64,000 bases of DNA from Callaeas wilsoni (Eukaryota > Chordata > Aves > Passeriformes > Callaeidae): NCBI GenBank assembly GCA_013398955.1, contig VWPU01000904.1:36801-100800 (forward strand), in the 5' to 3' direction. This document shows, in pieces, positions 35,101 to 61,100 of the stretch. Position 1 is the stretch's first letter; each line of letters begins with the position of its first letter. The notes under the pieces are model-generated. The model was given only the letters and a program-made list of their open reading frames with translations, was not told where the DNA came from and made no database searches. The translations under genes were made by a program, and so were the position numbers.

Positions 35101-38100
35101 AAGTAGTAAGTTTACTCTGAAGGGAACTTAGGGAAATTGTGGACAAGAAAGCCTGGATTAATGCCTCCCGCAGGACCACCACGGGCTGCTGGCTCTAATG
35201 CATTTCTCTGTTCCTGCGTGTAGCCATCAACTCATTTATTTAGGAACTGTTTTTATTCTAAGAATCGTAAAAATCTTAGAGATATAAGAAACCTGAAGAA
35301 AGGACTCAAGTGCTTCTTATAGAAGGGAAAATAAAAAGGTGTTTTAAACCCCCTTAGCTGAAGCATTTTCCCATTAAAAAAAAAAAAAAAAGGGAGAGAA
35401 CAAAACAGCAGCTCTGAAAACAGACTGTATCCACCATATATATTATCAATTTAACAGCCTTGAATGGAAACTGCAAGTGCTTTGATAAAAATCAATTGAA
35501 AAGCTGTCTGCCTCACTGTTGCTTCAATAAAGTGCCTCTGTATCTTTTGCTGAAACCTTGTTTTTGTAGCCTCCTTAAACAATACTCTGTATTAAATCAC
35601 CACACTGTTCCTTCTCCAAAAACAGACTCCAAGGCAAGTGCCCAGAGCAGCACCATGCATTGAAACTTCCCTTCAGCAACAGGGACCAGGGGTGTAAAGC
35701 AGCAGCACCTGACCCCCACTCCCAGCCACACAGGACAACCTCATTTCTACTGGACTGTTAAAAATTAACTTTCAAGTCTCGCTGCACTTAATTCAGGTGC
35801 TGAACTTCTCTCCCCGAGGACTTTGGCTCTGGGTCAGGCAGATTTGGGGCTGCAGTGAGAAGAGCTGAGCTCAGCAGCGCACACAGCCCTGACCAGAGCC
35901 TGACCAAAAGTGACCTTGATGCCCCTGTCCACCACCTCGTGATGAGCCCATTTCACACCTCACTGCCCCAGGTCAGCCCTCTGCACCTGTGTGAGGAGGG
36001 CAGCAGCAAGGCTTGGTTTGGATTCAAACAAATAAGCACTTTCCTGAAGCCTTTGCAAAGTCTCCAGAGTAAAACAAAAAAAATACTAAACCAGGTTTTC
36101 CTGTGTCCTCACGTGTGTAAGCCATACGGCCACTATCAAATAAGCAGAATGGCCAAAAAAGAGTCACCAGCACTCCACATTCTTGCAATTCAATCAGCTT
36201 TAATCATCGAAGAAGTTTTCACTAACCTGCAGCAAGGGTATTTGCTCTAATAACCTTGAATAGAGTGGTGACATTTTAAAGATGGCTCCATTGAACAAAG
36301 AAAGATAAAAACGCAATTTATGGCAGGATGGTGAATCTCAAGGCAAATTCCCACTACTGTAAATTGCAGCTTTTTCTCCAGGCCGATCCCTCTCCACACA
36401 GCAAGCACTCTGTCAGCACTGCTTTACCACACATCTTCCTGCTCTTCTGCTCCTCACTGGTCGGGATATTCCTCAAGATCGTATTTACAGTAGTGATTGG
36501 AAAAAATACAACAGTTCAGTCAAACGAACTGGGCCAGCACCCAATGCCACAAAGGATCTTGTCATCCTCGATGTACTTGGCAGCCTACAAAGCCCATGGC
36601 ACCCAATTGCACCCTCTAGACTCTCACAAAGCCTTCACAAAGACCTTCTGAAAAACACCTCACAAAACCTTTGGGAAGTACTGGATTCTGCTACAAAGTC
36701 CTGGGTGAGATTTTTGGTTTATATGTAAAATGATGCTATAAGCTCCCTTCACAGCAACCTAGGGGTAAAAAGCAATACTGAATGCAAATGGTTTTTTTGG
36801 AGTTCAGGAATCTCTCAGGTACAGCTGCCTGCCTTCCACACAACAGCCCCACCAAAAAAACATCCCCTCTGCTCAGGAGAGAACCTTGCTGTACACACAA
36901 GGACAGCTGAGTGTCCACAGGTCAGTCAAAGTATTACAGCAAAATTAGGTGAGGTTTGTAATTAGCAGCCATGGCGATGGCTTATATTGTTTCTGCTATG
37001 TCACCACTGGGAATTAAATAGAGGGTACCATATAAACCAGTCCAAAAATCAGATAGGTTTTAGCCATGAGGAACCTGGCTGCCATTTCAACTGGCACTTT
37101 ACATGCAGGAGACTCTATCCATCTCCATTACAAATCCTCTGAGCTCATCCTAGCATTACTTTCCCACATTAAGCAAAAGAGTTAACATAAAAAGCCTGCC
37201 TAGCTTCAGACATTATCCAGATAAAGAAGAGAAAAGAGAAAATCCCCCGTATTACCTCCCTCAGCTCTCCCCAAACCTTCTCTGACATCTTTGTTCTTTC
37301 AGACCTGGCATTTATCTGCAGATATTGTAGAGCCCTAATTAAATCTTCTCGTGAACCTCTGCTACTTCCTGGCAGAGAACACACATTCTTGGTGTGCTGA
37401 TGGACCTACAGGATTTTCTGCACTTCTCCCTTATGGTGAGTGTTAGGCCTTGCTTGAAAACATCACAACTGTGTACAACACAATATGTTTAAACAGAAAT
37501 ACAAAATTATTCCATTTCTTTCAAAGAATGAAGAGAAACATAAGTGAAAATTATATTCCACAAGCTCATTGGAAAACAAACTGTGGAAGCACTGGGCAAA
37601 TAGCAGTGTCTGAGAACAAGGCATGCTTTTGTTTTACTGCTGTCTCAGAAAGGGATAACTGGCAGCGATAGGAGAAGCAGAAAAATTTGTCTTCCAAAAT
37701 AAAATCTGCAGTTATCTCTTCCCCCTGGGAGTAAAAAAAACCACCATTCTGAAAGTGCAGCTGAATTTTGCATTAAGGGAAGCTGCACACCTAACCTTAT
37801 CTGATGGAAGCAGCTCAGTGTTCAAAGCCTCAAAGTTGGCAGCGACCGCTCGTTCGGCGAGCGAAGGGATGTGAGAGCTGTGAAAACCTTTGCACTCTGG
37901 AGTTAAAGACGCACAAGGCTAAAAAAGCAGATTTTACTGCTCCTCCTCGCTGCCCCCCAACAATTCTTCAGCTCCTTCAAACCACTGACTGATGCTAAAA
38001 GAAGCTGGAAATAAAGAGAGAACTTGCTGCCTTCCCTTCCCAGGCTGACGGCAGAGGCCTGGCCCAGCAGCAGCTGTCCTGGCAGGGGTGCTCTGATGGC

Positions 38101-40010: not shown

Positions 40011-40450
40011 CTTGGGATGACAACAAACAGCGGCCCAGCGCCCACCCCGCCCGCACCGCGCCCTGAGCGACAGCCGCGCGCACCAATCACAGCGCGGTCT
40101 GGCAGGCGTGTCCCGCCTCCCTACGCTCGATTGGACAGCGGCTGGACGCGCCGCAGAACCATTGGTTAAAGACCGTGTCCATCACTGTCAAGAGAGGGGC
40201 CCGCCCTCGCGGTAGTCCCGCCCTCTCTCCGCCCTCCCTTTGATGGACAGCGGGGACATGGACCCTGCCATTCTCTATTGGGCAAAGGCCGAAACTGTCT
40301 GTAATATAATTAGGCAAGAGGAACGTCAATCACCCGAGCCCTCTCCGCCCCGAGGGCACGGTCCCGGCGCTGACTGGCTGACACGGATTTCTCGCGCTCT
40401 GATTGGTAGCTGGGCTTCCCACCCACTCCCCGCCCATTGGCGGCTGAGCC

Positions 40451-40462
40451 GGTCACGTGACC
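40451..40462. promoter_or_regulatory. CACGTG palindrome matching the CLEAR/E-box consensus
   Basis: GGTCACGTGACC is a perfect 12-bp palindrome. Its core GTCACGTGAC is the CLEAR element bound by TFEB/TFE3 at lysosomal and endosomal genes; USF also binds CACGTG. TOM1L2 works in endosomal sorting, so a CLEAR role is reasonable but is inference. Confidence 0.5.
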
Positions 40463-40468
40463 GCCCAT

Positions 40469-40474
40469 AGCAAC
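40469..40474 (+). promoter_or_regulatory. RFX (X-box) half-site
   Basis: AGCAAC fits the RGYAAC half of the X-box bound by RFX factors at ciliary genes. GTGACC, fitting the other half (GTNRCC), sits at 40457-40462, but the 6-base spacer is longer than the usual 0-3, so a full X-box is not supported. DRC3 is a motile-cilium gene, which is why the half-site is recorded. Confidence 0.35.
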
Positions 40475-40499
40475 GCACCCGTGCTTCCTTAGCGACGGG

Positions 40500-40583
40500 C
40501 GCTGAGGCGCGGGTGGGAACCGGGAATCGGGAACCGGGAACCGGGCACCGGCAACCGGGAACCGGCAACCGGGGGAGCTGCGG
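40500..40583 (+). other. DRC3: Possible DRC3 non-coding exon 1
   Basis: A splice donor of good quality (GCGG followed by gtgaga) at 40584 lies downstream of the promoter boxes. It could join the acceptor at 41446-41447, which opens the exon with the DRC3 start codon. The exon start is not visible and the boundaries are inferred. Confidence 0.4.
40515..40570 (+). repeat. Eight-unit 7-bp tandem repeat (GGGAACC)
   Basis: Eight adjoining 7-base units: GGGAACC four times, GGCAACC twice, and GGGAATC and GGGCACC once each. The array has no indels and sits in the DRC3 promoter or 5' leader. The GGCAAC units also fit the RFX half-site RGYAAC. Confidence 0.9.
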
Positions 40584-40682
40584 GTGAGAGGCTTGATGGG
40601 CCAGGATCTGTGCCTCGGTGGGTCCTGGGAGCGGGGGGCAGCGGCACCTTCCCACCCACCGGGCAGGGGTGGTTAGAACCGG

Positions 40683-41464: not shown

Positions 41465-41621
41465 ATGAGTCAATTTTTCAATAATGTCGAGCCAAACATT
41501 ATTGATGATGAAATGGTTCAGAAAGCCATTGAAGAGAAGTGTCCAGAGGACCTTGGAGATCTTGCCAGAGGGGAAAATATTAACTTTAAGGCTGTGGCAG
41601 AGCTACAGCTTAGTTTTAAAA
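41465..41621 (+). CDS. DRC3: DRC3 coding exon 1 (start codon)
   Basis: The exon begins at 41448 after acceptor ctttaag; ATG is at 41465. Encodes MSQFFNNVEPNIIDDEMVQK through ELQLSFK plus one base. The donor is gtgagt. This N-terminus is the conserved start of the family. Confidence 0.95.
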
Positions 41622-44600
41622 GTGAGTATCAGAATATATACATATTTTCCCTCTTCTTTTGCTAGAAGGTGATAGAATAAAGCATGAAGTGGGTAACTGG
41701 CAATTAAGCAATCATTATTAGCTTGGATTTGCTATGTTAAAATTAACGTCTGGACTTAGACATTTGCTCATACCTGTACAAAGGAGCTTCACCAGAGGGA
41801 ATCTGGTGCTTTTGCTGACGAGTGACTTCAAAGCTTCTTCATTTCCCACTCTTACTGTCACTGCTGTTCTCATTTAACATTTATATTGTGGTGACACCTA
41901 CAGGCCACAGGCCTGTTGGGCCCCTCGGTACGTGGCCAAATCCAGCCCTGGGCAGGCTCTGCTGTGGCTGGTGATTATGTGAGAGCTGTTTGGGAGATTA
42001 TGGTGATTACAGTCCAATCTGATGGCATTCTCTGGTCACCCATAGCATTACTATAGCTCGCCTCTTACTGTCAAACCTGTCGTAAATTTGCGCTCAAAGA
42101 ATGAAAAGGAAGAACGTTCAGCTCGATATTTGTGTATCTGGGGGAGGAAGGTAATAGCCAAAATCTACTGTTGATTATTCTTTGTGTGCTCCAGTAAAAT
42201 AACGTATGTATGAGTTGATTTTCTTAGAAAGGACTCCCTTGACTTGATCCTGCATAGATTGGTTTGCAAATGCAAAATACAGAACTGTGTGAACATTTTG
42301 TGCATGCAGTTCCTTGGTTTATTGTGCCCTCACTAAATAAGGATAGCAGGACCACAGATGAAATCTTCTGGGAAGCCATTGCAGGAGAAAGAGAAATGGG
42401 AGTGAGAATGTTCTGTATTTCCTGTCACCTTGGTGCTGATGCTTTGCCGTGGTGACTAACGGCCTGCCCTTGTGATTCTGTTTCTGGAGGAAACTAAATG
42501 CAGGGATATTGATTAGTTCTAAACTGCAGCCTTCACAGAAAGAGTAGACTCCAACTTCCTCTCCTGTGATGAGAATCCCGGGAGCGGGAGAGTCATTTAC
42601 AAAAGCAGGAGCTGGGCGCCGCTAGACTGCAAATGCAGAGAAAAGCAGAGTCTCATCCCAAACCTCCTGCGTGGAGCTGGAGAGGAAAATGAAGGTCAAG
42701 GCCTCCTAGGAGTGGATTCATAAAGCCACTGGAGTGCGGGGCCGTAGTCAGCATCCCCTGCCCGCCTCGTTGGCCTCGCTGATGAGCAGCGTGCACTGGT
42801 GCAGGGCACTGAGGTGAGGTGGGCTGTTTCACTGAAATCTCCTCCAGTGCACCTCTGAGCTCTCCAGGGCACTCATCACATGCTGAAAATCCTTTTGGAG
42901 GCAAGGCTGGACGTGTTTTCCTTGTGCAAGGCAGCGTGTCTGCTAAAACGAAGCTGTCTCACATGAAAAGCAATTTTCTTTTCTTTTTGTTTTGTTTTCC
43001 CTGTGGCTTTAGGTATCCTGCAGATTGATAATCTGTGGCCATTAGAGAATCTGACTAAACTGCAGCTGGACAACAACGTCATCGAGAAGATAGAAGGCTT
43101 GGAGAGTCTGGTTCACCTTGTATGGCTTGGTGAGATACAGGCATAGGAGGTTGGGTGCCTTCACAGGTGCAAAGCAATCTGTGATAAACCAGGATGTCAC
43201 CTTCCTTCTCAAACACGACTGATAGGAGCTTACCCTGGGAAGGCTGTCAGCTGTCTCTGTGTTTCCTTATTTGACTGTCAAATGTCAAAATGCCTGAGTA
43301 TCAGAGCTGCAAAACAATCCTTCAAATGTTTAAAAACTGGGTTTAATGCATTCGGTGTGGCAGGAACAGGAAGCTGAGATTTCAAGGTTGTTTCCAAGGT
43401 TTGTATTGTGTTTAGGGTGACTTTCAGGAATATTTATGGAGATTTAGAAGCCTGCATTTTGTTTTCAAATCTGCTGCAGGCATTCCAGAGCCTACAACCC
43501 GCCATCTTTACCCCTTTATCCTTAAGGGCTTGGTGTCATTGTGGTACCACAGAGTGCCCATCCTTGTAGCCTCATGTGACTGCTTGCAGCTACGCAGATG
43601 CACAGCTTAGAGCATTCCCTGGAACTGCAGCCACGTTGCTGGCTGGAATTCTAAATATATCCTCAGCATGCAGGGCTTCAGCTCGTAAGCACGTTGTGAA
43701 ATGTCTAACGGGCTCTTCCGCCCAGTTGTCTGCACTGCTCTGCTCCACAGATGCCTGATGCACTGGTGAATCACCAACTGATCACCACAGTGTGAGCAGA
43801 GTGGTTGGAAGCACACTCACATGTTTCGTTTGCTCAAAGGCTGCAGTGGTTCAGCTGCTGCTAGACGAGTGTCTCAGCCACCCAAGAGACCTCATAAACT
43901 GTTTTCAGACTCTTGGCTCGCTCAGTACTAGCCCAAGGGCAAATCCTGCCCTTAGTCATGGTGAGTGTAGGTGGTAGGAGAGATGTTCTGGCAGGAGAAG
44001 AGGACATTTCAATAAGTGAAACAGCCGAAGTGAGCCTTTGCATGACTCCACCGACGTGGAACTGCCATATCTCGGTCCTATAGGAATGGCCACAAGTGTC
44101 GCAGTGGCGTGGCAGGCCAGAGTCTGCAAGAAACAAGACAGTGTCAGATTTATCACAGAAATTCCCCTCTAAGGGCATTTCCCCACCTCTTGTTTTGTGT
44201 TTCCCCATAAAGTCCCTTCCAGGCTATGTATGTGGACTCTGCATGAATTAACTTCAGCTTTTCCTCTCATTTAAAAGTTGCATGGACAATTGCAAGGAGG
44301 AGATGGGGATCAAGGATGATTTAATATCAAGCCTTTCCTGTGGGACAGTGACCACCCCTGAGAAAAATCTGTACATAAACTCCTACATCCAGAACTAAAG
44401 GGTGGAATCAGGGTGTTCTGCCAGAAATAATTTAATGTTTGATTTCTAAATTCTTCCCCAGACCTGTCCTTCAACAATATTGAAGTAATTGAGGGCCTGG
44501 ATACTCTTGTCAAACTGCAGGACCTCAGCCTCTACAATAACAGAATATCTAAAATTGAGCACATGGACACATTGCAAGAGCTGCAGATTTTCTCTATAGG

Positions 44601-47600
44601 GAAGAATAACCTGACCATTCTGGAAGATGTGAGTGTTCCCTGGCTTTGCAAATATTCCCTGTTGAAGGATCAGATACTCTAAAACTGGCATTTGCCAATG
44701 TGTCCAAGCCCCTCCTTAGGTGATAAAACTCTCCCTAGGATTTCTAAGTATTTCTGAGCTATGGTTTTGATCCTCTGTCCTGGTGTTAAGTGCTTACTGC
44801 AGCCATTTTTCTTTTCAATTATTTACTCATGGGGGCCCAGTTCTGTGACTGCTCTCAGCCATGGCAAAATTCCTATTGGCTCCCATGAAAGCTAGGAAAG
44901 GAATAAGTGGCTACATATGAGAAAAGAGGGGAGACTAGGATTTATTTGGAGTTCTTTTGAGGGCATCTTACCAATTTAAGACCTGTGATTTGTGCACCCC
45001 ATCTGCCTTCTCTCTCCACCCATTGTCTAGACATTCCCAATGTGAATTTAAGTATTTCCTTTCCCCAAACCATTAGAAACTCATAATTGAACGTCGTGTG
45101 AATTTGGCAGCGGAGCAGAATACGTATTGCAGCTTAACTGTAATAAAAGCAATAAATTCCAAGGCTGTGTTTCCCCAGCGCTGGGAAATACAGAGCTCTT
45201 TCCCTTTGGCACAGGTTGTCTATCTCAGGAGGTTAAAAGCCTTACGGACGCTGAACCTCAGTGGGAACCCTTTCTGCACCAAAGAGCACTACAAGCTGTT
45301 TGTTGTTGCTCATCTTCCAAGCCTGGTGTACTTGGACTTCAAGCTCGTGAGAGACTCCACGGTGAGATTTCTGCATTCCCTGATTGGGAAATCAGGCAGC
45401 AGCATCTTACAGATCCTTTGCTTTGTTGGTGTGCCAGCAATATTCCAGCACTGGGGGCAGGTTCCCTGCAGAAATCAGGCTCACAGAAACACGCAGTGTT
45501 TATTCTGCTTCCACATAACAGCTGCGAACCTGTAGGCCAAATTCTGTCAAATCTGACAGAGAGGTAGAGGTGTCAGAAGCATGATGTCTTCACAGATTTT
45601 GTGAAAATCAGCAGCTGTGTGTGGGAGAGGGGCCTGGTTCATGTTGCCACAGAGAGGCTGCAGTGTGAGTGCAAGTCTTCTTAGAGAATCTCAAAGGAAA
45701 TCAGTCTTGAGACATGGATCCGGGGGGAAGGAGCCTTGGTGGTCCTGCTGCTCACAGAGTGATTTGTTTCAGTAGCAGACTGACAATCCAGGCAAGCGGG
45801 TGCCTGGATGCACTTCCCACTCTTGATTTCCGAGAACAAGACAGTTCATCCTCACCGGTAACCTGTGGAACTGCTTTATCATCCCAGGGCTCAAAGGAAC
45901 AAAGACGGGGTTCTTTGTTCAGGGTTGTGGGGTTTTTTTAGTGACCAAAGAACATGATTAATTGTAAATTTGCTTGGCACAGAGCAGGAGCTGTACTTGG
46001 AATGTACATTGCTCTTATCATAGGACTGGAAGGGCTTTCCAGGTCATGGAATGCAGTCCCTGCTCATCAGGGACATCAGAGAATTGCATACTTAAATTTG
46101 TCAAGCTTCAGTTTCAAGCTAATGAGGTTCTTGCCCCTGGTACTACCTTGCCATTCACTCCTCCAAAGAGCCTTCTCCTCCCTAGAAAATGTATTAACCT
46201 TGCTGACTGATCAAATTGGAGCTCAAATTCTAGAAGTCAAAATAGAACTTCCTGCTAAAAGAGGAGAAAAAATCAACTCTAAAGATGAGAAAATGGAGAG
46301 GGAAGAGCTTCCTGGGACCGAATTATCTCAGATGCATTGATTGCAGAAACAGAGTAGTATGCAGCAAAAAATGGGATGAGGATTAGATTAGAAACTTCAT
46401 AAGTAGTTTAATAAAAAGCCCGTGAGGAAATGGAGATGCAGATGCCACTCTGGTGCATGTTCTAGAAAGATCAGTTGCTTACACCCAGACTTGTTGAGCA
46501 ATATTTGATAATCTAATACAAATATTTTATTTATACTCAGAGAGAAGCTGCAGCTTTAAAATATCAAGATCTTACTAAGCCATTGGAACAAGAGGAGGCT
46601 CAGGCCCTTGCTCTGCAGGAGATAAAACAGGCAAAGCAGAAGGAGCTGGAGTACCACCAGGTGAGTGTTCTTTGGCTGGTTGTGTATTGTCTCAGGAGAA
46701 AGAAGCACAACACATATTGACTTGTCTTTTCCCTGCTCGAAGATTTAATGAGAGGTTAACATCGACTCTGCTAAAACTAAGGCTCTGCTTAATCTCTGTG
46801 ATCTCTGAATCTTATCTTTTGGATGAAAACAGGAACTGCTGTGGAATACACATGACATGGGGGACTATAATTCTTTGGACTGAACAATGAAATTACAGAT
46901 AGAGACCCTGCGAAGCTAAATAGTAAATCATACCCAGGGAGCTTATCAGCCTGACGTAAGATTAAGAAAATTACAGGTCTGAGGGAAATGTTAACATTTG
47001 CATGGTGAAGTGACTTTTTTTCCTCCTTCACACCAAGTTAAGCTTTTCATTGGTTTTATGGTTAAATTCTCTGGGACTTTCAGAGATCACTGTAGTCCTG
47101 TGACCAGACTGAAAGCAAGATCAGGTGGAATAGTGCTTTCATTTGTGGTCTGTCTCTGTATTCCAGACCTCTAGAAGATCAGAGTGGCTTAAGTTTAGTG
47201 TTTAGTGCCAGGGAGGATGCCTGCAACTCTTCCCTTTGTCCCTCCCCAAAGTTCACCAGCTCCTTATCTGAAAGGCTTAATAGCCTTGCAATAAGTGTTT
47301 GTATGTGGTAATGTCTTACATTGGCAACTGGCACAGGTTGCCCAGAGCAGCTGTGGCTGCCCCATCCCTGAAGTGTTCCAGGCCAGGTTGGACGGGGCTT
47401 GGGGCAGCCTGGGATAGTGGAAGGTGTCCAGGCCCATGGCAGGGGGGTGGAGTGAGATGATCTTTAATGTCCCTTCCAACCCAAGCCATGTATGATTCCG
47501 TGATCTGATACGAGATTAAAGAGTGTTTTCTATCCTTAGGCTACAGAGTTGTAGCAGCAAAGCCCCTGGGACGGGTTTCACTCCATTGCAAGGTGCTTTC

Positions 47601-50024
47601 ATGGCTTGGTTGGTGTTTCTGCTGTGTTCATGTAACTGTCTGCACCAAGGTTCTGCTGCTGCTGAGCTGCTTATAGGAGAGACACATCCTGAGGACTGGC
47701 AGCAGGCTGGCATCTTTGTTTTACTTATTTTGCTCTGTTTCTATTCAAAGACAGCCTTTGTTGAGTACCTGAATGGATCACTCCTGTTTGACAGTCTGTA
47801 TGCAGAGGATACAGAAGCTGCCAAACTGGCTTCCCTCCCTGGAGTGGGGGACCTGCTGCAGGCATATCCTTCCTGGGTTTGGAATACCTACAGCTAAAAG
47901 GTAATGCCTTGAGTTAAGAAGGAAGTGCATCCACAGGGACTCTTCATCTGTTGCTTTTGTCCAGAGCTGAAAGCTACACTGGTCTAAGATCTGAGACAGT
48001 CTGTGTTCAATTTTGGAATGGTACCAAAAATTACGCTGCAAGGCTGTGAGACCACTGACAGCTTTAAGGCTTGATATCTTGTGAAATATGAGGGCTCCAA
48101 ACAAATGGTTTGTATTACTGGCAAGCTGGCCAGCCCAGCTTGAAACATCTCATTTGTAAAACCACTCGTTTCTATCCCCAACAGGTCATGAGATCCCAGC
48201 CTTTTAAATTCTCACCGTTGTAATTACCATATTCCTTTTCCTTCCCTTGAATCAAACACGATTTCGGTAGCCTCCTTTTCTGACCCTTCAAGAATCAAGA
48301 CTTTGTACTTTCTTTAAGTCTGGAATCCACTTAAAGTTTAAAATGAGCTGGAAGATAAATCTCTGTCGGTTAGATTGTAAGAGCACAGTCGCTGAAATCA
48401 TGTTGAAATTGAAGTGGTAGGAGATAGGAACAGACTAATCAGAACGGTACAAGTCACATATCTCACAACCTGCCAGAACTGGCAACGTGAAGTTTCCAGG
48501 CCAGCACATTTTTCTGATCATTGCTCCTACACGGGGGAGCAGAAAGCAGACACTTTTTTTTCTTTTTTCTTTTCTCATTCAGATTAATAGAGTATTGTCA
48601 AGGCCGGTAACTTGACCTTCCTTAAAATTGCATTACACTGTTGGGGAAAAATGCATCACAGCTTAACTACAATAGACTCCAGAAACAATTCCATTGCCAA
48701 GATAATAGCAGAAGAAAAATTGACGTTATTTTTGTGATGCTACAAAGTCAGTAGTTTATTCTTTGCTCTGGCTGTGGGCTCCAGAACTGTATTTATTAAC
48801 TACACAGGCACTGTATTCACACTTGTGAAGACAGATAGGGTTGTAGGCTTCGTTCTGCTGCTATTTCAGAAGAGTCAGACGAGTGAATGTATTTTCTTCT
48901 CTTCCTCAAGGCCTTTTTCCCCCCTCAAGTTGCCACAGTTTTCCCCATATCCTTAAGGCAGCAAAATCCCATGCATAAAACCCATGAGTGGGTGACCCAG
49001 TCCTGCCCCAGACAGAATATTTGGCAGCTCCCAGCAAGAACCACAGAGTTTACATAAAAGTAGCTTGTAGCTCTTGTTGCTCAGATTTGCAGAGGTAGGA
49101 GGAATATAATGTGTTGCTCCACTGAACAAGCAAAAAACCTTGACTCTGCTGTCACATACAAGAAGGAGTTTGTCTCAGTTTCTGGGAACCTGTATAACTA
49201 TGGACTGGAAGAGTACGAAAAACGAGAAGCTGAAGTCGCTAAATTCTGCAAAAGACTCCATGAAATTCTGACAGTCAACCAGCAAGAAAGCAAGAGAATA
49301 ATCTCAGAGTTTGAAAATAGGAACCAAAGGGTAATGTTATACTTTTGTTTGTTTGATACATGATTTCTCTCCATCATATACTAGCTTTGAATTGCACTGA
49401 AAATGGGGGTAACTCCATGACAATTAGGAAAATTATTCTGGATTGGCAATGCTGTGATGGTAATCAATACTTGATCCCTAATGGCAGAATCAGAGAGTGG
49501 TTGAGGGTGGAAGGGATCTCTGGAAGTCATCTGGTCCTGGTCAAGGAGGACTACCCACAGCAGGCTGCCCAGGAATGTGAATATCTCCAAGGATGGAGAC
49601 TCCACAGCCTCTCTGGGAAACCTCTTCCAGTGCTCAATCACTGACATTTCCTTATGTGTTTCTTACAACATAAATTTATATGTGAAAAATTGTTTTGTTA
49701 GCTAATATCATGTCACTGACATAATGTGAAAAGTTTTTTAATATTTTACATAGGGAAAAAGGTTGGGGTTTGAAATTTCTACCCTTTGGGCAAGCTACAA
49801 CCAGCTAACACAGCCTTTATCTATACTGGAAATTCAGTGTAGAACAAAATATGTCATAATGTTATCATCTATAAAGGTAAAGATGATTTTTACAGAAGAA
49901 TGTGGCTAAACAGGGTGGGGTTTTTTACTTCCCATCCAGAAAAGTTGCCAATATTTAAGAAAATGGAAATCTCAACCTTTCTTTTAGTGTAAATATTTTT
50001 TATAAAGTTGATTTATAAGAGATG

Positions 50025-50064
<40 letters not shown>

Positions 50065-53000
50065 TTTACTGCTACTCCCCTTCTTTTTGAAGCCTCCAAT
50101 AGCTCTTCCTTCATTGAAAAATTGGGAAGAAAAGGAAGGAAATTGCAGGGTATTCAGTTTATTTTCAAGTAATTTTCTGCTTCAGTTCATTTTCTCAACA
50201 ACAGCTCAAAGAACTATAACCAAAAAAATTAGATAAAGTTATTTTAATGTATTTCTACTCTTTTAAAGCAGAAACTCTCCCTTTTCATTCTGCTCAACTA
50301 CAGCCACCCATTGTGGCTGCTCAGGGCGTAGCTTCTAGCTGGATCCCTTTCTAACCGTGTATAATAGTTGGATCATGATTTTGTTTCCACAGAAAAAAAT
50401 AAGGGAGGGCTAAAGCCTGGTCACACTGTCAGCTGAGAGAGCAAGTCTCTGACAGCTGACACCAGCAGAGTCACGAGTGCTGGCTCTCGCTGGAAACCAG
50501 GTCACTTTTATTTCTGTGCCTGTCCCAGGCTGATGGCTGCTGAGTCACTGTGCTCCCGGGGCCTTCGACCTTGCTGACTCACGCTGGAAATCTGCATCCA
50601 GCAGCTCTAGCTGGGACACGAGCTGGCAGCACTACCAGAGTCACGGAATTCCAGAATGGTTTGGGTTGGAAGGGACCTTAAAGATCATCTCGTTCCAACC
50701 AAAAGCTTGACATGAATATTCAGGTAGCTTGGACTCGAATTCTCACTGCATCTTCCACAAAAAAACCCCCTAAACCAGCAAAACAAACCCTGCAAAACCT
50801 ACAAAAACAAAGAAATAACAACAAAACCCAAAGAAACATGGCTGAGGCCAGATTTTACCCCTTCACCTCTGATCATCAGGCTCAGCTATGGATTGGGCTG
50901 CCAGAGCATGGAGTGACAAGGGGGAATGGCCTTAAGCTGAAAGAGGGGAGGATTAGATGGGACATTAGGAAGAACTTAGATGAAATATTAGGAAGAACTT
51001 AGATGAAATATTAGGAAGAAATCCTTCCCTGTGAGGGTAGGAAGGCCCTGGCACAGGTTGCCCAGAGAAGCTGTGTCTGCCCTACCCCTGGAAGTGCCTA
51101 AGGCCAGGCTGGACAGGGCTTGGAGCAACCTGGGATAGTGGAAGGTGTCCCTGCCCATGGCAGGAGGTGTGACTGGATGATCTTTAAGGTCTTTCTCAAC
51201 CCCAACCATTCTAGGATTCTGTGATTCTCTAAACAGGACGCAAGGGTCAGCGTGCCAGTTTTCATATAAATATTAGAGGAGTTGGTATCAAGACTGAACA
51301 CAGTGTTTGAACAGCATTTCCTCATCATTTAAAATTGCTGGAGGAGTTCAAAAGGCACAAAGGCCCCAGCAGACTGCAGTCTGTGAGCTGTTCTTAGGGC
51401 TGTTTGTCTGGCTGTAATCCTTTCATGTAAACTTGGGTAACCTGTAAAATCACTGCGCCCTCTGAAGTTGGTTACAGAGGATTAAAGGCCTTGAACTTTG
51501 AAGTTCTTGCTCCCAGAGGTGCAGCTTGAGTGGCTCTGCAGCCTTTTGAGCCTCCTAACTTGTTTACATTAGCGAAGAAGACACCTTGCTCTCCCCTTCC
51601 CCCTTTTAACACTGCAAAGTTTGGGTAATCCACCCCATTTCCAGACACAAGCCTTGGCAAGGGTTTTTAACAGAATTCTTTACTTCACCCCGTTCCATTC
51701 CCTCTCAGGAGACGTGGATTAGACATAATAAAACATATCTATTTTTCCTCCTATTTTAAACAATTGATTGTTAACTGATTTTAAAGAGACTTGAAAATAA
51801 TGCATTCAGCAAAAGAGGATTTTTTTTTTTTGATCCAAGGAAACATAAATCTTGTCTGATACAAAAGTGACGTCAATACATAATTCTGAAGGGCAATAAA
51901 TCCTTGCTGTAAGAGGAAGGCAGGCAATGATAGGTATTCCATATTCAGAATACTAAATCCTGACCCTACTGGAAGTCAGTCAAGATTCTCCTTGGCAGGA
52001 AGTGATCAGGATTTAGGCCTGTGTTTCTTTCTCTGAAGCAATCGTTAATTTCTTCTTCACAGCCAGCAATGACTAGAATTAAATATTGTTCTTTTTTTGC
52101 TTGAAATGAAGGGGAACTAAAGCTGGAATCACAGAAGGAGCAAAGTCTTCTGCTGAGTGGAGGATGAGGAAGAGTTTTCCCAATCCCGCTGCAGTAGCAA
52201 ACCTCAGCACTGTTGACTACCCAGTATGTAAATGCGGAGACTTCCCTGAATCATCACATTTCATTTCAGCTAATCAGCAGCAGGAACTTTCCTCACACAT
52301 GTAACAAGTTAATTAAATTGCGATGGAGTGCTGAACACAAACTATAAGTAATTCATGTGTCTCTGCGTTTAGAGGCTGGATGAGATTTATCACGCCAGGA
52401 GTGGCGATATTGCTGAGTCTAAACGAGCCCAGGGCAAGGAGGACATCCTTCAGCTCTGGGATGCTCTCATGACCTTGGAAGCGCTGGTGTCCAACGACCT
52501 GGAGGTGAGAGCCAAGCACACACCTGTGAGACCTCACGGCCAGAACGTGGGGGGGTCACTTTTCTGTCACTGCAGCCCTGTGTAGCAGCTTACTCACAAA
52601 GAGGGGGGCTCGGGACTTCCACTCAGGAAAATGTTCTGTCCCTGTCTTATTCTTTCTCTGCTCAAAGTTGGCGAGGGTGAGATCAGGCCTGGACATGGAT
52701 ACCTTACAACAGATTTCTGTTTCTCAGAGCAGAACACAGTATGTCCTTCACATTTATCCAAGCTGATTTCCCACACTTTAGAGAAAGGGAGGTCGTGCAA
52801 TCATTTTATAGCTCTGCACAAGCCGCTGCATAGCATGGGGCATGCATTTGGGATTCTAGAGGTGTCATTCTTTGAAGCTGATCTTTGCTATAAGATTACA
52901 CACATTCCTTCTTGGCTTGCTGCGTTTGCTTGCATAATAGCTGCCTTTTCCTCCCCAGACTTTTCCTCAAAAACTAGGGCAGGGCTGCTGATGTGCATCT

Positions 53001-56000
53001 TCATTGAAGGAAAAAACCCAAAGTAATCTGTTTAAAAATGAGCAGGCAGGAGCTGTGGCCTGTGTGCAGCAGTTTACTTTTGTGAGCGTGGATGGCAGAA
53101 AGAAGCAGCTCAAAATGGATCCTCACTGCATCAGGATTGTGCCTTTTTAGTGTTTTCTGAGTTGGCCCTCACGTATCTGCAATCACTGATGGGATGAGCA
53201 GAAACATTTCTCCCTGTGTGCCCTGCTGGATTTGCAGGATTCGGATACCAAGACACATTTTAAGTGCAACACTTCACAGATTCTCCATCAGCCATTTCTT
53301 AGAGGGGGAATAGGCAGCAGCAATTTTAATTTCTGAGGACTAAACCAAGAGCTGCAGTAAAGCCCAGGCAGGGGTTGTGCTTCTGACAAGAGGCTCTTCA
53401 TACAGACAAGGAGGCTGCAGCATGGCAGGGTGTGGGAATCAGCCCTCTCCAGGCATTGCTTAGGTGAGGGGAACAAAGGATCCCCTGGCTTACTCCAGAC
53501 ACTGGGTAAAGGTAGTATTCAGTCAACTTCCCTCTAATAAACTGATTCTGATCTTCTGTCCCTGAAGAAGGGAAGAAAATCTTGCAGCACTTTGAAAACA
53601 CTTTAAATGCTCGAGGCAGTTCAGTTTCTGACTGTGCTAATAACAGCAGTGAGTCCAAATTACAATAAATTGTAGATTCTTCCTAGACTCCCTGACTCCC
53701 TGTTATGTTTATGCAAGTTTTCATTGTGATATTTCCTCTTTTTCTCCTCTGTTAAGGAACTGTTACAGGATTTTAAAAGAAGCATTGATGTCATAGCATC
53801 AACATTCATTGAAAACATTCAAGGGATATATCCTTTTCACAGTATGTTGGCCTGGACCTCCCAGTCATGTACCTACACCTCACCTCTAAATCCAAAAAAT
53901 GAGCCACTAGTATAAAAACTTTTTTTTTTTAATTTTAATCAACAGAAAATAATCTTTTCCCAGCTTTGAGGAATGGTCGTTTAAGGTGCCCAGCTTCTTC
54001 ATGTGGAGACTGGAGAGCATAGAAAAACCTCAATTCTACTGTGCTGAAAGTCTGTAGGATTTGGGCAGCTTTTGCCCTTCTGGGAATCTTCCTTTCTTCT
54101 CCATGCAGAGAAGGCAAAACCCAGGGAGGATCTGGTTAGACCAATTTCTAGGTACATTCCTGTCATAGCAGTCAATGAAATATCTACAATTCGTGTTGAA
54201 ATGTCTTTAAATGGTGTTCATTTTTGTGTTGTTTGTGTCTTCTGAAAAAAAGTTATGTGAGAATACTGACGTGCTTCAGTGTCAGATCACACTGCTTTAA
54301 ATCTAGAAATCTGATGGCCTGGTGCAAATAATTGCAGTGCATTCAGAGCTTAGCTTTTAACTAAGGAGACCTCTTCCAATTTCCCTGGCAATCCTAGGTC
54401 CTCTCTCAGTCCTCTGTCATATTTGGCACTAAGGATGAGACTCAGTGTGTGATTGAGAACTGAAAGTGTATATCCTGATATCCTGACACCACAGCAACTT
54501 CTGGGAGCAGCCAGGCTCATTCCTGCAGAATCCCCCTGTGCAGACACTCAGTCCCAGTTACAGGAGGTCATTTAATCTCCACAGATGAGTGGTGTGGTCA
54601 GCTTTTTCCTTAACCACGTTCTGTACGTTGAGCCAGTGCCGGGACCTGGAGAACCAACACCATGAAAAGCTGATGGAGATGGCCATCGCCATCCTGGAGA
54701 AACTGGACAAGGATGAGCTTCAAGAGGATTTGCCAGATGATGTTCGAAGGGTGAGGGCACCACAACAATTCATCTCTGTGAGGTTGAAAGGAAACAAGAA
54801 AACAAGGCCAGAGCCTTTTCTCTGAAGGGACAGGATTTGCAGGAGGCTCAGTGCTGCCAGAGCCATACCTGAACCACAGCATAACCCCCTTCCTAGAGGG
54901 TCCAGCCACTTGGCTGAACTGTGGTGCCTCCGGACATCTCCACTGCCTAGGACCGGGGATAACTGCACTGCAGGTTTCCCTGGGCACTGCCAGAGCTGGT
55001 GGCAGCAGCCCAGGAGAGGTGCTGAGGAAATCTCTCTCCTGCCTCCAGCACAACTCACTGCTCTGGCTGATTTCCAGGCACTCAGGCAGCATCTTTGCTG
55101 CACTCCCTCACAGCTGGTTTTGTTCAGACTCTCCCTGCTCCCTCAGCAGAATCCCAGCACTGCTCTGAATTTCTTGCACCGGGGCTCTGTTTGCCTCAGT
55201 GATTTCAAAATCCCTTCCTGGAGCTCCCAAGCCTTTGAGCTGATCTGGAGGCAGGACGTGACACTTTAAATGGAGCCTTCCACCAAGCCCTCAGTCTTGC
55301 TGTGCTAACAAAGATCCCAGGAGCCTTTCCAAAAGCACCGACATCGTTGCAGCGCTCCACTCAGCAACGCTGCTACCCTTTTTGCCTCCATTATTCCTTC
55401 ACTTAGTGGCTAAATTACTTGAATTTGCATTAGCTGTGGCTTTGCTCTGTCCAGATTATCCCAGCCCCCTGTCACTCCAGGTAATCAAGAGCTGACAGAC
55501 ACAAACCAGACCCCCGAGCCCCCGGGGGAGCTCCTGCTTTATGGCCTGTGCAGATGGTGGCGGTTCCGCACCGCTGCCACGCGCCCATTTTGCTTCCCTG
55601 TCATCCATTCCCATGGAGAAGGGAATTCATTCGCCCAACAGCTGCACTTGGCTGCAGGAGGAGAGTCATTACGGGTTAGCGAAGCCACCCTCTATTTAGA
55701 GCCACGAGGGAAGTCACCGCTTCCATTAGAAGCTGGGACTCTCCAAAAATGAAGATTTACAGCCAGCGCCAGCAGCGCAGGAATCCCTTCCAAGTGTGAT
55801 TTTCCATTTCCAGGCGTGCTGGAGCATATACAGCCTTGCTTCAACACCAGCTGCACGGCAGCCCTGCCTGCACAGAACTCCCCATTCCAGCATGCGGGGC
55901 CAAGGGTGCTGCCTCAGTTTCCCCACCTGTACTAAGGATAACACCCCGTTACGCTGTAGCGAGGCCAAGGGTAAAGCCCTGGATTCCTTCCAATGAGCAG

Positions 56001-56516
56001 GGATTTGCCAGGTTGAGACAGAGGGCTGGTTTCTCTCCCTGAGCGCTGTTGTGCTGCTCGTTCATTGTGTGCTCACCCTCTCCTCTCATCCGGTCACGTT
56101 ACCTCCCAGCTCCTCGTGGACAAAAACACCATTGTCAACGTCATCAACATGTCCCACAGCATCCGCCTGCGGAAGATTGATAAGCGAGGGAGCGACATGC
56201 TCTGCAACACTTACCAGTGGCAGACCTCAGTGATAGAGAAGGTAAGAGACCCTCACACTCAGGGGGATGGAGCACAGATAGGTCTGGCCCAAGGGGCAGG
56301 GACACTTTGAGGAGAGACACTCCTGGACCTTTGCTGGAGCCCTCTGTGCTCCAGGGACCTTGACACGCCTGCAGATTGACTGCTTGGTTTCAATCTGTCC
56401 AGGCTTTCCAAACCGAGAGCGACAGAAACCGCGCCTGTATTGAAAAGATAATTTGTTTCATCAAGACTCTGCAGAAGGAGCTGGATAACACAGCGATCCT
56501 GGAGCCTATGGAATAG
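41465..56516 (+). CDS. DRC3: DRC3, dynein regulatory complex subunit 3 (LRRC48), complete
   Basis: Subunit of the nexin-dynein regulatory complex, which links outer doublets and controls dynein in motile cilia and sperm flagella. Twelve coding exons join in phase to 1569 nt (522 codons plus stop); the human protein is about 523 residues. Seen in the translation: N-terminus MSQFFNNVEPNIIDDEMVQK; leucine-rich repeats of the SDS22-like kind from about residue 50 to 190 (for example LTKLQLDNNVIEKIEGLESL and LVKLQDLSLYNNRISKIEHM); then a long charged, largely helical coiled-coil region to the C-terminus, with the conserved blocks AFVEYLNGSLLFDSLYAED and SQCRDLENQHHEKLMEMAI. Coding exons: 41465-41621, 43013-43129, 44462-44628, 45215-45361, 46541-46660, 47751-47863, 49156-49330, 52373-52504, 53757-53827, 54627-54750, 56110-56241, 56403-56516. 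The introns after coding exons 6 and 9 are AT-AC introns; reading only GT-AG introns would break the frame there. It shares a promoter region with TOM1L2. Confidence 0.95.
43013..43129 (+). CDS. DRC3: DRC3 coding exon 2
   Basis: 117 nt, first leucine-rich repeats: SILQIDNLWPLENLTKLQLD, then NNVIEKIEGLESLVHLVWL. The acceptor is gtggctttag and the donor gtgaga. Confidence 0.96.
44462..44628 (+). CDS. DRC3: DRC3 coding exon 3
   Basis: 167 nt, leucine-rich repeats: DLSFNNIEVIEGLDTLVKLQ, then DLSLYNNRISKIEHMDTLQE, then LQIFSIGKNNLTILED. The acceptor is ttcttccccag and the donor gtgagt. Confidence 0.96.
45215..45361 (+). CDS. DRC3: DRC3 coding exon 4
   Basis: 147 nt, 49 codons, the last repeat and its C-cap: VVYLRRLKALRTLNLSGNPF, then CTKEHYKLFVVAHLPSLVYL, then DFKLVRDST. 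The acceptor is ttggcacag and the donor gtgaga. Confidence 0.96.
46018..46200 (-). repeat. Possible old CR1 fragment
   Basis: ATAGGACTGGAAGGGCTTTC and CAGGTCATGGAATGCAGTCC resemble the reverse complement of an older CR1 3' end. The rest is too diverged to be sure. It lies in the DRC3 intron before coding exon 5. Confidence 0.5.
46541..46660 (+). CDS. DRC3: DRC3 coding exon 5
   Basis: 120 nt, 40 codons, start of the coiled-coil part: REAAALKYQDLTKPLEQEEA, then QALALQEIKQAKQKELEYHQ. The acceptor is ttatactcag and the donor gtgagt. It is less conserved with human than its neighbours. Confidence 0.92.
47328..47507 (+). repeat. CR1 LINE 3' fragment
   Basis: Contains TGGCACAGGTTGCCCAGAGC, CAGGCCAGGTTGGACGGGGC and CCCTTCCAACCCAAGCCATG, then GATTCCGTGAT. 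It lies about 240 bp before DRC3 coding exon 6. Confidence 0.92.
47751..47863 (+). CDS. DRC3: DRC3 coding exon 6 (ends at a U12-type donor)
   Basis: 113 nt, reading TAFVEYLNGSLLFDSLYAED, then TEAAKLASLPGVGDLLQ plus GC. The acceptor is ctattcaaag. There is no usable GT donor; the exon ends before ATATCCTT, and the split codon is completed as GCA (Ala274) by exon 7, matching the family's LL-x-x-Y-K pattern. Confidence 0.93.
47864..49155 (+). other. DRC3: U12-type AT-AC intron (DRC3 intron after coding exon 6)
   Basis: Donor ATATCCTT at 47864-47871 equals the minor-spliceosome 5' consensus. The acceptor dinucleotide is AC at 49154-49155. A branch-point match, CCTTGACT at 49138-49145, puts the branch adenosine (49143) 12 nt from the acceptor, within the narrow range known for U12 introns, and no polypyrimidine tract is needed. 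Only this pair joins LLQ-A-Y-KKEFV in frame. Length 1292 nt, phase 2. Confidence 0.93.
49156..49330 (+). CDS. DRC3: DRC3 coding exon 7
   Basis: 175 nt, entered through an AC acceptor: YKKEFVSVSGNLYNYGLEEY, then EKREAEVAKFCKRLHEILTV, then NQQESKRIISEFENRNQR. Donor gtaatg. The exon is predicted to be coiled coil from its heptad-like spacing and charge. Confidence 0.93.
49485..49645 (-). repeat. CR1 LINE 3' fragment, antisense
   Basis: AATCAGAGAGTGGTTGAGGG, TGGAAGGGATCTCTGGAAGT, CAGGCTGCCCAGGAATGTG and GGATGGAGACTCCACAGCCT are reverse-complement CR1 blocks of a subfamily different from the GATCATC type. The end lies ~150 bp after DRC3 coding exon 7. Confidence 0.85.
50025..50064 (+). repeat. 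(GATA)10 microsatellite
   Basis: Ten uninterrupted GATA units in the DRC3 intron after coding exon 7. The length suggests it is polymorphic. Confidence 0.97.
50638..50700 (-). repeat. Very short CR1 3' end fragment, antisense
   Basis: About 60 bp, TCACGGAATTCCAGAATGGT then TTGGGTTGGAAGGGACCTTA then AAGATCATC. It is followed by an A/C-rich low-complexity stretch (about 50755-50840). Confidence 0.85.
50875..51228 (+). repeat. CR1 LINE 3' fragment with a 23-bp internal duplication
   Basis: Contains ATTAGGAAGAA, CCTGGCACAGGTTGCCCAGA and GGAAGGTGTCCCTGCCCATG and ends CTAGGATTCTGTGATTCT. A perfect 23-bp direct duplication (50965-50987 and 50988-51010) interrupts the standard element. Confidence 0.92.
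52373..52504 (+). CDS. DRC3: DRC3 coding exon 8
   Basis: 132 nt, 44 codons: RLDEIYHARSGDIAESKRAQ, then GKEDILQLWDALMTLEALVS, then NDLE. The DALMTLE block is conserved in the family. The acceptor is gcgtttag and the donor gtgaga. Confidence 0.94.
53757..53827 (+). CDS. DRC3: DRC3 coding exon 9 (ends at a U12-type donor)
   Basis: 71 nt, reading ELLQDFKRSIDVIASTFIEN, then IQG plus AT. The acceptor is tctgttaag. It ends before ATATCCTT; the split codon becomes ATG (Met400) on joining exon 10. Confidence 0.92.
53828..54626 (+). other. DRC3: U12-type AT-AC intron (DRC3 intron after coding exon 9)
   Basis: Donor ATATCCTT at 53828-53835, identical to that of the other AT-AC intron. The branch-point region TTCCTTAAC at 54606-54614 equals the U12 branch consensus, with the branch adenosine at 54613, 13 nt from the terminal AC at 54625-54626. 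Joining gives IENIQG-M-LSQCRDLEN, aligned with the human family member. Length 799 nt, phase 2. Confidence 0.95.
54627..54750 (+). CDS. DRC3: DRC3 coding exon 10
   Basis: 124 nt, entered through an AC acceptor (ttctgtac): LSQCRDLENQHHEKLMEMAI, then AILEKLDKDELQEDLPDDVR, then R. The donor is gtgagg. Confidence 0.95.
56110..56241 (+). CDS. DRC3: DRC3 coding exon 11
   Basis: 132 nt, 44 codons: LLVDKNTIVNVINMSHSIRL, then RKIDKRGSDMLCNTYQWQTS, then VIEK. The acceptor is acctcccag and the donor gtaaga. Confidence 0.95.
56403..56516 (+). CDS. DRC3: DRC3 coding exon 12 (stop codon)
   Basis: 114 nt including TAG at 56514-56516: AFQTESDRNRACIEKIICFI, then KTLQKELDNTAILEPME. The acceptor is aatctgtccag. 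The 3' UTR is short, with AATAAA about 130 nt after the stop. Confidence 0.94.
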   Translation, partial: AFQTESDRNRACIEKIICFIKTLQKELDNTAILEPME

Positions 56517-58010: not shown

Positions 58011-58148
58011 TCAGTCCTGCAACAGCTTGTGTTTTACAGTCGAGCTCTCTGAGCAGAGGTGAACAAAGAGAGTCCCAGCTGCCGTGCGAGCACGCAGCTC
58101 ACACAGGTCGTAGTCGTGGGCCCACTCCACGTTGCCCCAGCGCCGAAT
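58011..58148 (-). CDS. ATPAF2: ATPAF2 coding exon 8 (stop codon)
   Basis: 138 nt including TGA at 58013-58011: IRRWGNVEWAHDYDLCELRA, then RTAAGTLFVHLCSESSTVKH, then KLLQD. The acceptor is tctccttcag. The C-terminus is conserved to within a few residues of the human end. Confidence 0.95.
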   Translation of the reverse strand: MRRWGNVEWAHDYDLCELRARTAAGTLFVHLCSESSTVKHKLLQD

Positions 58149-61100
58149 CTGAAGGAGAGGAGGAACATGGATTATACTCAAAGCACCTCAGCAACTCTCA
58201 GCCTCCCTTCTCATGTTTGTGAAGCACAGGTAACCCTGCCCCAGGAATTGAGCTGATCCTTGGCTGCTGAGGCAGGATATCTCCAGATGAGGATGTGTTT
58301 CATCTGTACTGGGGTCTGAGGCAAAGCCTCTTAACGGGAGGATGAAAAGATTGCCAACTTCAGCCACTTTTGGGACACGGAGAGCTTCACACCAGGCTAA
58401 TTTCCAGCAAGCTTGGTATCTTGGTGTCTACCAAAGCCTCCAGGCTGGATAACCCTCAGCAGGAGAAGCCAGCCACAACTTTGCACTTCAGATTAGAGAG
58501 GGAGGAAAGCAGCCATCTGGGCTCTGCGAAAAGAAACTGGCAGCCCAGGGAGCACTCTGGGCTGTTGTGCCCGTGGTGTTGCTCTGCAGCAGCACGCTCC
58601 AAACGCTCTCAGACAGGGAGACTGGTGGAGTGGAACGTCTCCTGCTATAGCAGGCACTTCCCTTGCCAGTTATTTGTGGTGGGGGATGCATTTGTCATGC
58701 TGAGATTATTGCTATTTGAATTATAGGGCTGTTTTGTAACATAATTTACCTGGTATTCTTCCTCCAGGCGAGACAGAAGCACGGCTTTCTCTACTGTAAT
58801 GTGCCTGTCAATCAGGCTCATGGACAGAATCAGCGATTTCAGCTGGGTGATTACAAATTCTATACCTGGAAGGAAATAACCCAAACCAAACAAGATTCAT
58901 GGCTGTTTTCTGCAGCATTACAGCAGCATCCTCACATGCTCTGAAGAGACAGGCAGGCTGTGGTACCCCCTCAGGGAGGGCCAGTGATCCTCTCACTTGC
59001 ACCTGGGCACTCAGATCTGTGGTTAACAGCAGGCACAGAGCATTGTGCTGGCCCTGCCACCGCAGTGACAAAGGCCATGGCCTGGACACCACCTCCTTTT
59101 ATTCTGCCACAACCCTTCCCTGTGCAAAGGGAAGAGATACCCATCCAGGCTCGAGCATTCTGTGTCTTTTGTGGCTTTCACTGCCTGCTGCTCCTTCAGG
59201 TCTGGAGCAAAGCAAACCTCCCTTCATTTCCTTCTCTCTCGGTGTCATTCAGATGATTCAGGCAAGATTAAGTGGGATAGAAGGATGAAAAAGTGAGGAC
59301 AGTGCACAGTGTGGGCACTTTGGAGTACTAAGCCTGATTTCTTTTCCTGGTAACAACAAAGCTAGGGATTAAATCATTAGAAGGTTTGGCATTAAAGAAG
59401 TTATTTGTGCTAAGGTAGAGCAAACAGCTCATGGGACAGCAGGGTCAGATCCTGAACACAAGTGGCACTGAAGAGAATCCCTGCCTGTGAAAAAAGCAGG
59501 TCAGGGCCTGGCCTGCAGACTTAAAACATAAACCTCCACACTCGGAGCAGGAGAAGAGAAACATTACAGTCACTCTCCTGCCCCTTGGAGAGGATCCACC
59601 TCCTCACTGGCCCAGCCTGAGCAGAGAGCTCCTGGCCCAGCCCTGCTCACCTTGCAGGGCCCACATGTTGTAGGATGCCAGATGGCTGACGAAGGTGTCC
59701 TTGGTGCTGGCTGGAATGTTTGGCCCCAGGATGCTGGTCGAGGAGCCAATTGTCACGTTGTACCTGGAATGATCACCCAAACCCTTAGCAAAGCCCAGGG
59801 AAAAGGCCCAGGGCTCACAAAGCTTGTGGCTCTGACAGTCACAGGCACCAGAGCTCCTGGTGGGCCTTATGCAGCCAGGAACCCTTTGAGCTCTCACCTT
59901 TTCTCAGCCCAGGCGACCACGGGATCCCACTCGTTCTTCTGTAGTTCTGCCAAGGCTGGAGGCTCCTCCACACGATAGCTGGGACATCACGGAACAAAGC
60001 CACACTGGATGGTCACTCCCAGGCTGGGACACACCTCTGGGAAGGACACTGACCCCACCAGACCCACAGCAAGTGGAACAGGGACCTGCTGTACGCTCAG
60101 ACAGCAGTGACATGGAACCATCCCCCAGCTCTTCCCCAAATTCAGAGCTTTTTGGTTATTCTGGGAAGGACAATTCTAATTTACTACAAAACAGAGCAGT
60201 GAACCAGCCAACTGAAAACTGCAGGTAGCCCCAAGCCACAGGCTGAAGCGAATTGTAGCAGTTAGGGGAGGGTACAATTCCCACTGCAACTCTCTGTGGG
60301 GCCACTCCTGCTTCTCTCTGCCCAGTGGCTCAGCTTAGCATTCCCTACCCCGCCAGTCTGACCAAAACCACGAGGGCAGCTGGGGGAAGCCTGTTCCTCT
60401 CTCTCCACAGGAACTGTGCAGCTGCCAGTGGAGGCTGGACAGGAGCCTGGGCATGAACAGGCTTGATCCTACAGCCCATGGGGACTTTAAGGAATGAAGG
60501 GCATTTTGGGACTGGTACAAGCAGTCTGAGCTGCCTGTACTGGCACAGGAATACAGGGACTGGCTGACAGATCCCCACAGGCCTTTCAAAGACGTTTTCT
60601 TTTCTCCAAGATCTTCCCTTCCCGCTGCTCCCACCCTTGCCCAGCATGGAGGTGTCCAAAACAGAGTTTGACAGAGGACCAGATCCCATTCTCCCTCTTT
60701 GGGTGCGCAGACTCCAACCAGGTTTTGCACACGCAGGACTGATCTAAACTAATTCAAACCCTTGGGCAAAAACCAGCACAGATCAGAGCCGTGCCGTGAC
60801 TGGATGAGAGCTGATGTTTTCCCTCACCTTCCCCAACCCTCTTTCCAAAATCCAGCTGGGCCCCCATCTCGTACCAGACTGTGTCTGTCTCCAGGAACTT
60901 CACAGCCGCTCGGATCAGCTGCGTTTTGTTTCGCTGCGTGGGATTGTCCAGCGCCGTGTTGCACAGAGTGGTCTGGGAATAAAGGCAGTTGAAACTGCTG
61001 TTACTCCAGGCCTGGAGGAGCAGCAGCTTCCATGGTACAACGCCAAGAAGAAGCAGAGGGATTGGTGGCAGGTGAAAAACTGGGGGGTGGAGGGCCACAA

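Follow-up and report, generated by a model that had tools for sequence, protein, structure and literature searches.

Does a structural gene of motile cilia contain two introns that begin with AT and end with AC, and, if so, how old are they? The question is raised by a 64,000-nucleotide stretch of contig VWPU01000904.1 of Callaeas wilsoni (positions 36,801 to 100,800 of the forward strand, hereafter the window), where the original prediction placed two U12-type AT-AC introns in the gene DRC3 (LRRC48). We conclude with high confidence that introns 6 and 9 of DRC3 are real U12-type AT-AC introns, and that both were in place before the lineages of birds and mammals separated. The AT-AC assignment draws on the splice sites and on the reading frame, on relatives whose spliced-length contigs show exactly these joints, and on the conservation of donors and branch sites.

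The coding part of DRC3 was modelled at 41465-56516 on the + strand, with 12 coding exons (1569 nt including the stop codon, 522 codons). Nine of its 11 introns are GT-AG introns, and the remaining two, numbers 6 and 9, are AT-AC introns. The 522-residue product aligns with the PDB DRC3 chain 9fqr_Qv over residues 7-514 (E 5.2e-153), and neither of the AT-AC joints is gapped. The identity as DRC3 is given by this full-length homology and by the LRR families found in P0001, a protein 97% identical to the product. The features are as follows.

41465..41621, + strand: coding exon 1 of DRC3, with the start codon; aligns from residue 1 to PDB DRC3 8j07_3; a 5′ untranslated exon lies upstream, outside the model
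47751..47863, + strand: exon 6, ending in phase 2 with ...CAGGC
47864..49155, + strand: intron 6, U12-type AT-AC, 1292 nt; donor ATATCCTTC, branch site AACCTTGAC with its A 12 nt from the end, acceptor CAC
49156..49330, + strand: exon 7, 175 nt, from the gene model
52373..52504, + strand: exon 8, 132 nt, from the gene model, followed by a GT donor
53757..53827, + strand: exon 9, 71 nt, with an AG acceptor upstream and a U12-type donor downstream
53828..54626, + strand: intron 9, U12-type AT-AC, 799 nt; donor ATATCCTTT, branch site TTCCTTAAC with its A 13 nt from the end, acceptor TAC
54627..54750, + strand: exon 10, with an internal AG ending at 54636 that is used by models skipping exon 9
56403..56516, + strand: exon 12, the last coding exon, with the stop codon

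Re-reading of the sequence against the gene model reproduced the coordinates, donors, AC ends, branch distances and phase that had been claimed for both introns. Each starts with ATATCCTT, ends with AC and is in phase 2. At intron 6, GGC is followed by ATATCCTTCC, and AACCTTGACTCTGCTGTCAC leads into ATAC; at intron 9, GGGAT is followed by ATATCCTTTT, and TTCCTTAACCACGTTCTGTAC leads into GTTG. The sites were scored against U12 donor, U12 branch and U1 consensus sequences and compared with a U12-type branch range of about 10-16 nt. The donors of introns 6 and 9 match the U12 consensus at 8/9 and 9/9 positions, respectively, and those of the other nine introns at 2 to 5. Intron 9 matches the branch consensus TTCCTTRAC at 9/9 positions and intron 6 at 7/9 with the core CCTTGAC intact, while the other introns reach 4 to 6. 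Both branch adenosines lie inside this range.

The abundance of the donor motif should not be taken as proof. Counted over both strands, the window contains three copies of RTATCCTT, against 2.71 expected from shuffles, and ATATCCTT alone three times against 1.40 expected. All three RTATCCTT copies are on the + strand within DRC3, and the third (48947) is inside intron 6. Since the count of RTATCCTT is at chance level, we rejected it as evidence, and the evidence is carried by position. What goes beyond chance is that the only two conserved exon ends lacking a GT are each followed by an exact copy, accompanied by a correctly spaced U12-like branch match and AC.

AT-AC introns that are removed by the major spliceosome exist, as intron 21 of SCN4A (PMC2831892), and introns 6 and 9 might be of that kind. 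The sodium channel introns have G at position +5 (PMC2831892), whereas the DRC3 introns have C there in an intact ATATCCTT. The U12-like branch sites 12-13 nt from the intron ends also argue against removal by the major spliceosome, and we regard this explanation as very improbable.

The use of the AT-AC joints is seen in relatives. P0001 (source code lgn, contig of 1778 nt) encodes 522 residues and differs from the window protein at 15 of them, and P0015 (contig of 1744 nt, 83% identical) likewise encodes 522 residues. The joints in both are those of the AT-AC introns, reading LL(Q/L)AYKKEF and NIQGM(L/F)(S/N)QCR. These contigs are too short to contain the introns and must therefore stem from RNA that had been spliced, or from a copy of such RNA.

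Public protein sequences were compared in two lists, a bird list with the best 120 of 1130 matches and a second list with the best 120 of 1283 matches, 104 of which were new and were amniotes where named; all counts of entries given below for birds and other amniotes are among the matches listed. The entries in both lists that carry the source code lgn only are exact at both joints in 9/9 cases (contigs of 1744-2046 nt). With a loose pattern, joint 1, that of intron 6, is ungapped and exact in 55/120 birds and 84/104 other entries.

The original prediction held that only the AT-AC boundaries keep the protein in frame. This is incorrect, since two GT-AG pairs nearby also do so while changing conserved residues, as listed here.

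47877..49168, + strand: surrogate GT-AG intron, GTTTGG...GGAG, in wrong models; AYPSWF replaces AYKKEF
53846..54632, + strand: surrogate GT-AG intron, GTTGGC...TGAG, in wrong models; GIYPFHSIQC replaces GMLSQC

The existence of both pairs with the frame kept raises the alternative that they are the true introns and that the AT-AC ends are coincidental. Both are used in P0017, a partial DRC3 protein from Callaeas wilsoni itself, and YPSW is found at joint 1 in 54/120 bird entries. P0017 is otherwise identical to the window protein, save for other residues at exon 5 and a missing C-terminal end. However, the surrogates turn the conserved YKKEF into YPSWF and insert residues at GMLSQC. Their donors, GTTTGG and GTTGGC, match the U1 consensus GTRAGT at only 3/6 bases, and the first acceptor is purine-rich. 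Moreover, the AT-AC joints and not the surrogates are found in the spliced-length contigs and in entries named by NCBI, such as P0002 from Corvus. We therefore give the surrogates only a very small probability of being the true introns.

The AT-AC introns have in turn left scars in the public gene models, which record the start of each intron where the model reads through the donor. At joint 1, YP directly follows the joint residue in 57/120 bird entries, and the commonest form, AYPSW, is the translated start of intron 6 (GC/A TAT CCT TCC TGG, where the slash marks the joint). At joint 2, that of intron 9, YPF is found in 54/120 bird entries, all of them among the 57 with YP at joint 1, and the commonest form, IYPFHS, is the start of intron 9 (AT/A TAT CCT TTT CAC). 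The residue preceding YPF is I in 53 of these 54 birds. This observation means that the first intron base is not G, as ATG would give M, and hence that the intron is of the AT subtype.

Whether the introns reach beyond birds was examined in the 104 further entries. Read-through at joint 1 is found in eight of them, seven mammals and a gecko: Callithrix jacchus, Orycteropus afer, Bos mutus, Ctenodactylus gundi, two muntjacs, Sciurus carolinensis and the gecko Euleptes europaea. YPF at joint 2 is also found in eight, all mammals: Cavia porcellus, Dama dama, Capra hircus, Marmota monax, Molossus nigricans, the two muntjacs and Sciurus carolinensis. Another surrogate, within exon 9 (EN/CRDLE), is used in four mammal entries (P0181, P0202, P0211 and P0213).

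Some models run instead upstream of the acceptor, and such read-back spells the branch site. At joint 1, LDS(A/G)VTY (CTT GAC) is read in three birds (hoatzin, Chlamydotis and Lonchura), and SLTASFTY, which fits TCC TTG ACN, in both muntjacs. At joint 2, FSLT, which fits the TTT TCC TTA ACC of the window, is read in 7 of the 11 bird entries for which read-back is listed there (Oreocharis, Climacteris, Sitta, Ptilonorhynchus, Burhinus, Pycnonotus and Cercotrichas). The mammalian counterparts at this joint are LNSGC, which fits CTT AAC, in five ruminant entries and LTHGC in Marmota.

Read at the protein level, orthologous introns of the same class thus lie at the same places in birds and mammals; a gecko shares the one at joint 1. 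The original prediction had left open whether the human gene has the same introns, and the scars give a positive answer for several placental orders. Because the same scars occur in birds and in these orders, both introns are placed as AT-AC introns in the common ancestor, which lived more than 300 million years ago. A recent creation of both introns in birds only would be compatible with the window taken alone; it is opposed by the identically placed scars of ruminants, rodents, marmoset, aardvark, a bat and, at joint 1, the gecko, and we assign it almost no probability. For an age beyond amniotes, the 120 entries listed for a Chlamydomonas query (algae, other protists and fungi by name) contained no usable scar; YP matches in two of them, P0284 and P0338, sit in unrelated sequence and were set aside. 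As for orthologous DNA, the viral contigs gave no pattern match and the genome contigs no relative.

As a control, gaps from −4 to +5 residues around each joint were counted in the 120 bird entries. Intron 9 is gapped in 59 and intron 6 in 4, the latter number being small because the surrogate of intron 6 keeps the length. The values for introns 1, 2, 3, 7, 8, 10 and 11 are 1 of 119, 0, 5, 0, 6, 0 and 0 of 70, respectively. When the 104 other entries are compared with chimpanzee P0121, introns 6 and 9 are gapped in 14 each, intron 4 in 10, intron 5 in 4 and the rest in 0 to 3.

Several points weigh against the assignment and its age. The control is unclean, since the GT-AG introns 4 and 5 are also gapped in 53 and 45 of the 120 birds; where such models were inspected, the cause was the omission or replacement of exon 4 or 5. 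Models thus fail at joints that are not AT-AC, and the argument rests on the letters YP and YPF, not on failure itself. The scars moreover show TAY CCN and not each base, due to the ambiguity of codons at third positions. In 4 of the 11 birds with read-back at joint 2, including Menura, FSLT is absent, the sequence differing or stopping short. The branch site of intron 6 is the weaker one, at 7/9 of the consensus. The AT-AC ends in RNA are seen indirectly, in contigs of relatives, none from this bird, and that the source code lgn stands for assembled public reads is what we infer ourselves. A separate observation concerns exons 4-5 (45215-46660), where the Callaeas model has other residues for exon 5 and 473-residue Corvus isoforms lack exon 4.

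Introns of this class should be excised by U11/U12, U4atac/U6atac and U5, and both DRC3 introns would accordingly require the U12-dependent machinery. In the mechanism we propose, U11/U12 would pair with ATATCCTT and with the branch site, CCTTGAC in intron 6 and TTCCTTAAC in intron 9. U6atac would then take over the donor and the minor spliceosome would join AT to AC, leaving the other nine coding introns to the major spliceosome.

If minor splicing were slow, the major machinery might skip exon 9, or the intron might be kept with an early stop. Joining the exon 8 donor (52504) to the AG at 54636 removes 81 nt, or 27 residues, in frame. This form is annotated in 5/224 amniote entries, all birds (two zebra finch entries as isoform X2, two from Ammospiza and one from Lonchura), though wrong modelling of the same sort could also have produced these annotations. 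Direct splicing from the AT donor of intron 6 to the AC acceptor of intron 9 would drop exons 7-9 (378 nt) and keep the frame. A reading frame continued into intron 6 or 9 runs for about 10 or 28 codons, respectively, before a stop codon. When the minor spliceosome is blocked, the major one is reported to skip exons flanking minor introns, and the aberrant isoforms had premature stops (PMC8034651). Depletion of the AT-AC factor CENATAC affected 92% of A-type and 24% of G-type introns (PMC8280824), and, by analogy from their class, DRC3 may depend doubly on CENATAC. It is conceivable, if rather improbable, that multiciliated and sperm cells have in DRC3 a built-in sensor of AT-AC minor splicing. 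The output of DRC3 would then be doubly CENATAC-dependent through its two long-held introns, slow splicing would yield, besides nonsense RNA, a defined in-frame product without 27 residues (those of exon 9 and the first ones of exon 10), and the assembly of the nexin-dynein regulatory complex would be tuned thereby.

The rarity claimed in the original prediction is overstated. In chicken, 18% of U12 introns are AT-AC, and in human 26%; minor introns are also known to cluster in the same genes (PMC7367187). Mouse and human each have 50 genes with two minor introns and three genes with three (PMC6717393); about 50 two-intron genes are also given for humans (PMC3584512), and a legend in the CENATAC paper allows for multiple introns of one type in a gene (PMC8280824). 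By our own arithmetic, if a gene's two introns are independent and the AT-AC share is 22-26%, both would be AT-AC in about 2 to 3 genes out of 50. The weight put on the identical donors is likewise too great, since ATATCCTTT is a usual AT-AC donor, found for instance in SMYD2.

The DRC3 introns agree with AT-AC (A-type) U12 introns in the donor ATATCCTT(T), the TTCCTTRAC-like branch site, the short distance from branch to acceptor, the AC end, the non-0 phase and the deep conservation. Nothing structural differs, except that the branch match of intron 6 is weaker. With the CENATAC-dependent A-type introns (PMC8280824) they share the minor AT-AC class, and for DRC3 the dependence itself is suggested by that class. 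Like the voltage-gated sodium and calcium channel alpha subunit genes (PMC3584512, PMC2831892, PMC6717393), DRC3 carries multiple minor introns next to its numerous major introns, but unlike them it is an axoneme gene in which both minor introns are AT-AC and in phase 2. DRC3 thus fits a known pattern and is ordinary in kind, the new points being a presumed double CENATAC dependence and a presumed in-frame skip of exon 9 by the major spliceosome. No link between DRC3 or LRRC48 and U12 or minor splicing was found in the open-access papers searched, and neither gene name occurred among the papers listed by broader searches, though U12DB, IAOD and MIDB may well list DRC3; one match to these terms, PMC9979489, is a hydrocephalus paper and off-topic.

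Mice with a missense mutation in Lrrc48 show hydrocephalus and laterality defects, and the males are infertile (PMC4978901). A connection with cilia is also reported for loss of ZCRB1, a protein of the minor spliceosome, in passages that name no DRC gene (PMC13216214). These observations together make a link between DRC3 and minor splicing worth testing. The comparative evidence thus points to a structural gene of motile cilia with two conserved AT-AC minor introns, which offers a ciliary read-out for defects of CENATAC and U4atac/U6atac. Many public bird models of DRC3, and some mammalian ones, are wrong at the AT-AC joints and would mislead variant calling and protein alignments. Conversely, such wrong models can serve to trace the donors and branch sites of minor introns when the genome sequence is not at hand.

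Within intron 6, the region 48618-48954 contains a U12-like 3′ site, TTCCTTAAAATTGCATTACAC (ending at 48638), followed by the third ATATCCTT at 48947. Recursive splicing at the latter was rejected, as CC and not AC precedes it. The two sites would bound a 308-nt exon (48639-48946), whose inclusion would shift the frame and introduce stops. A 3′ site and donor paired in this way occurred in 3/3000 shuffles, with thresholds chosen after seeing it, and a hidden U12-flanked exon that would break the frame is mentioned as a lead only. Elsewhere in DRC3, a GATA microsatellite lies at 50025-50064 in intron 7, and stretches resembling CR1 repeats were recognized by eye.

The region 39960-40600 is a divergent promoter between DRC3 and a minus-strand gene whose first exon was read by eye, and which we take to be TOM1L2. 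RFX-like half sites occur there (AGCAAC at 40469, GGCAAC at 40550 and 40564), and no full X-box was found in the window. On the other side, minus-strand exons at 58090-59985 lie tail to tail with DRC3 and match Pfam ATP12 with E 0.0061 and 17.1 bits, under the cut-off of 27; these exons presumably belong to ATPAF2.

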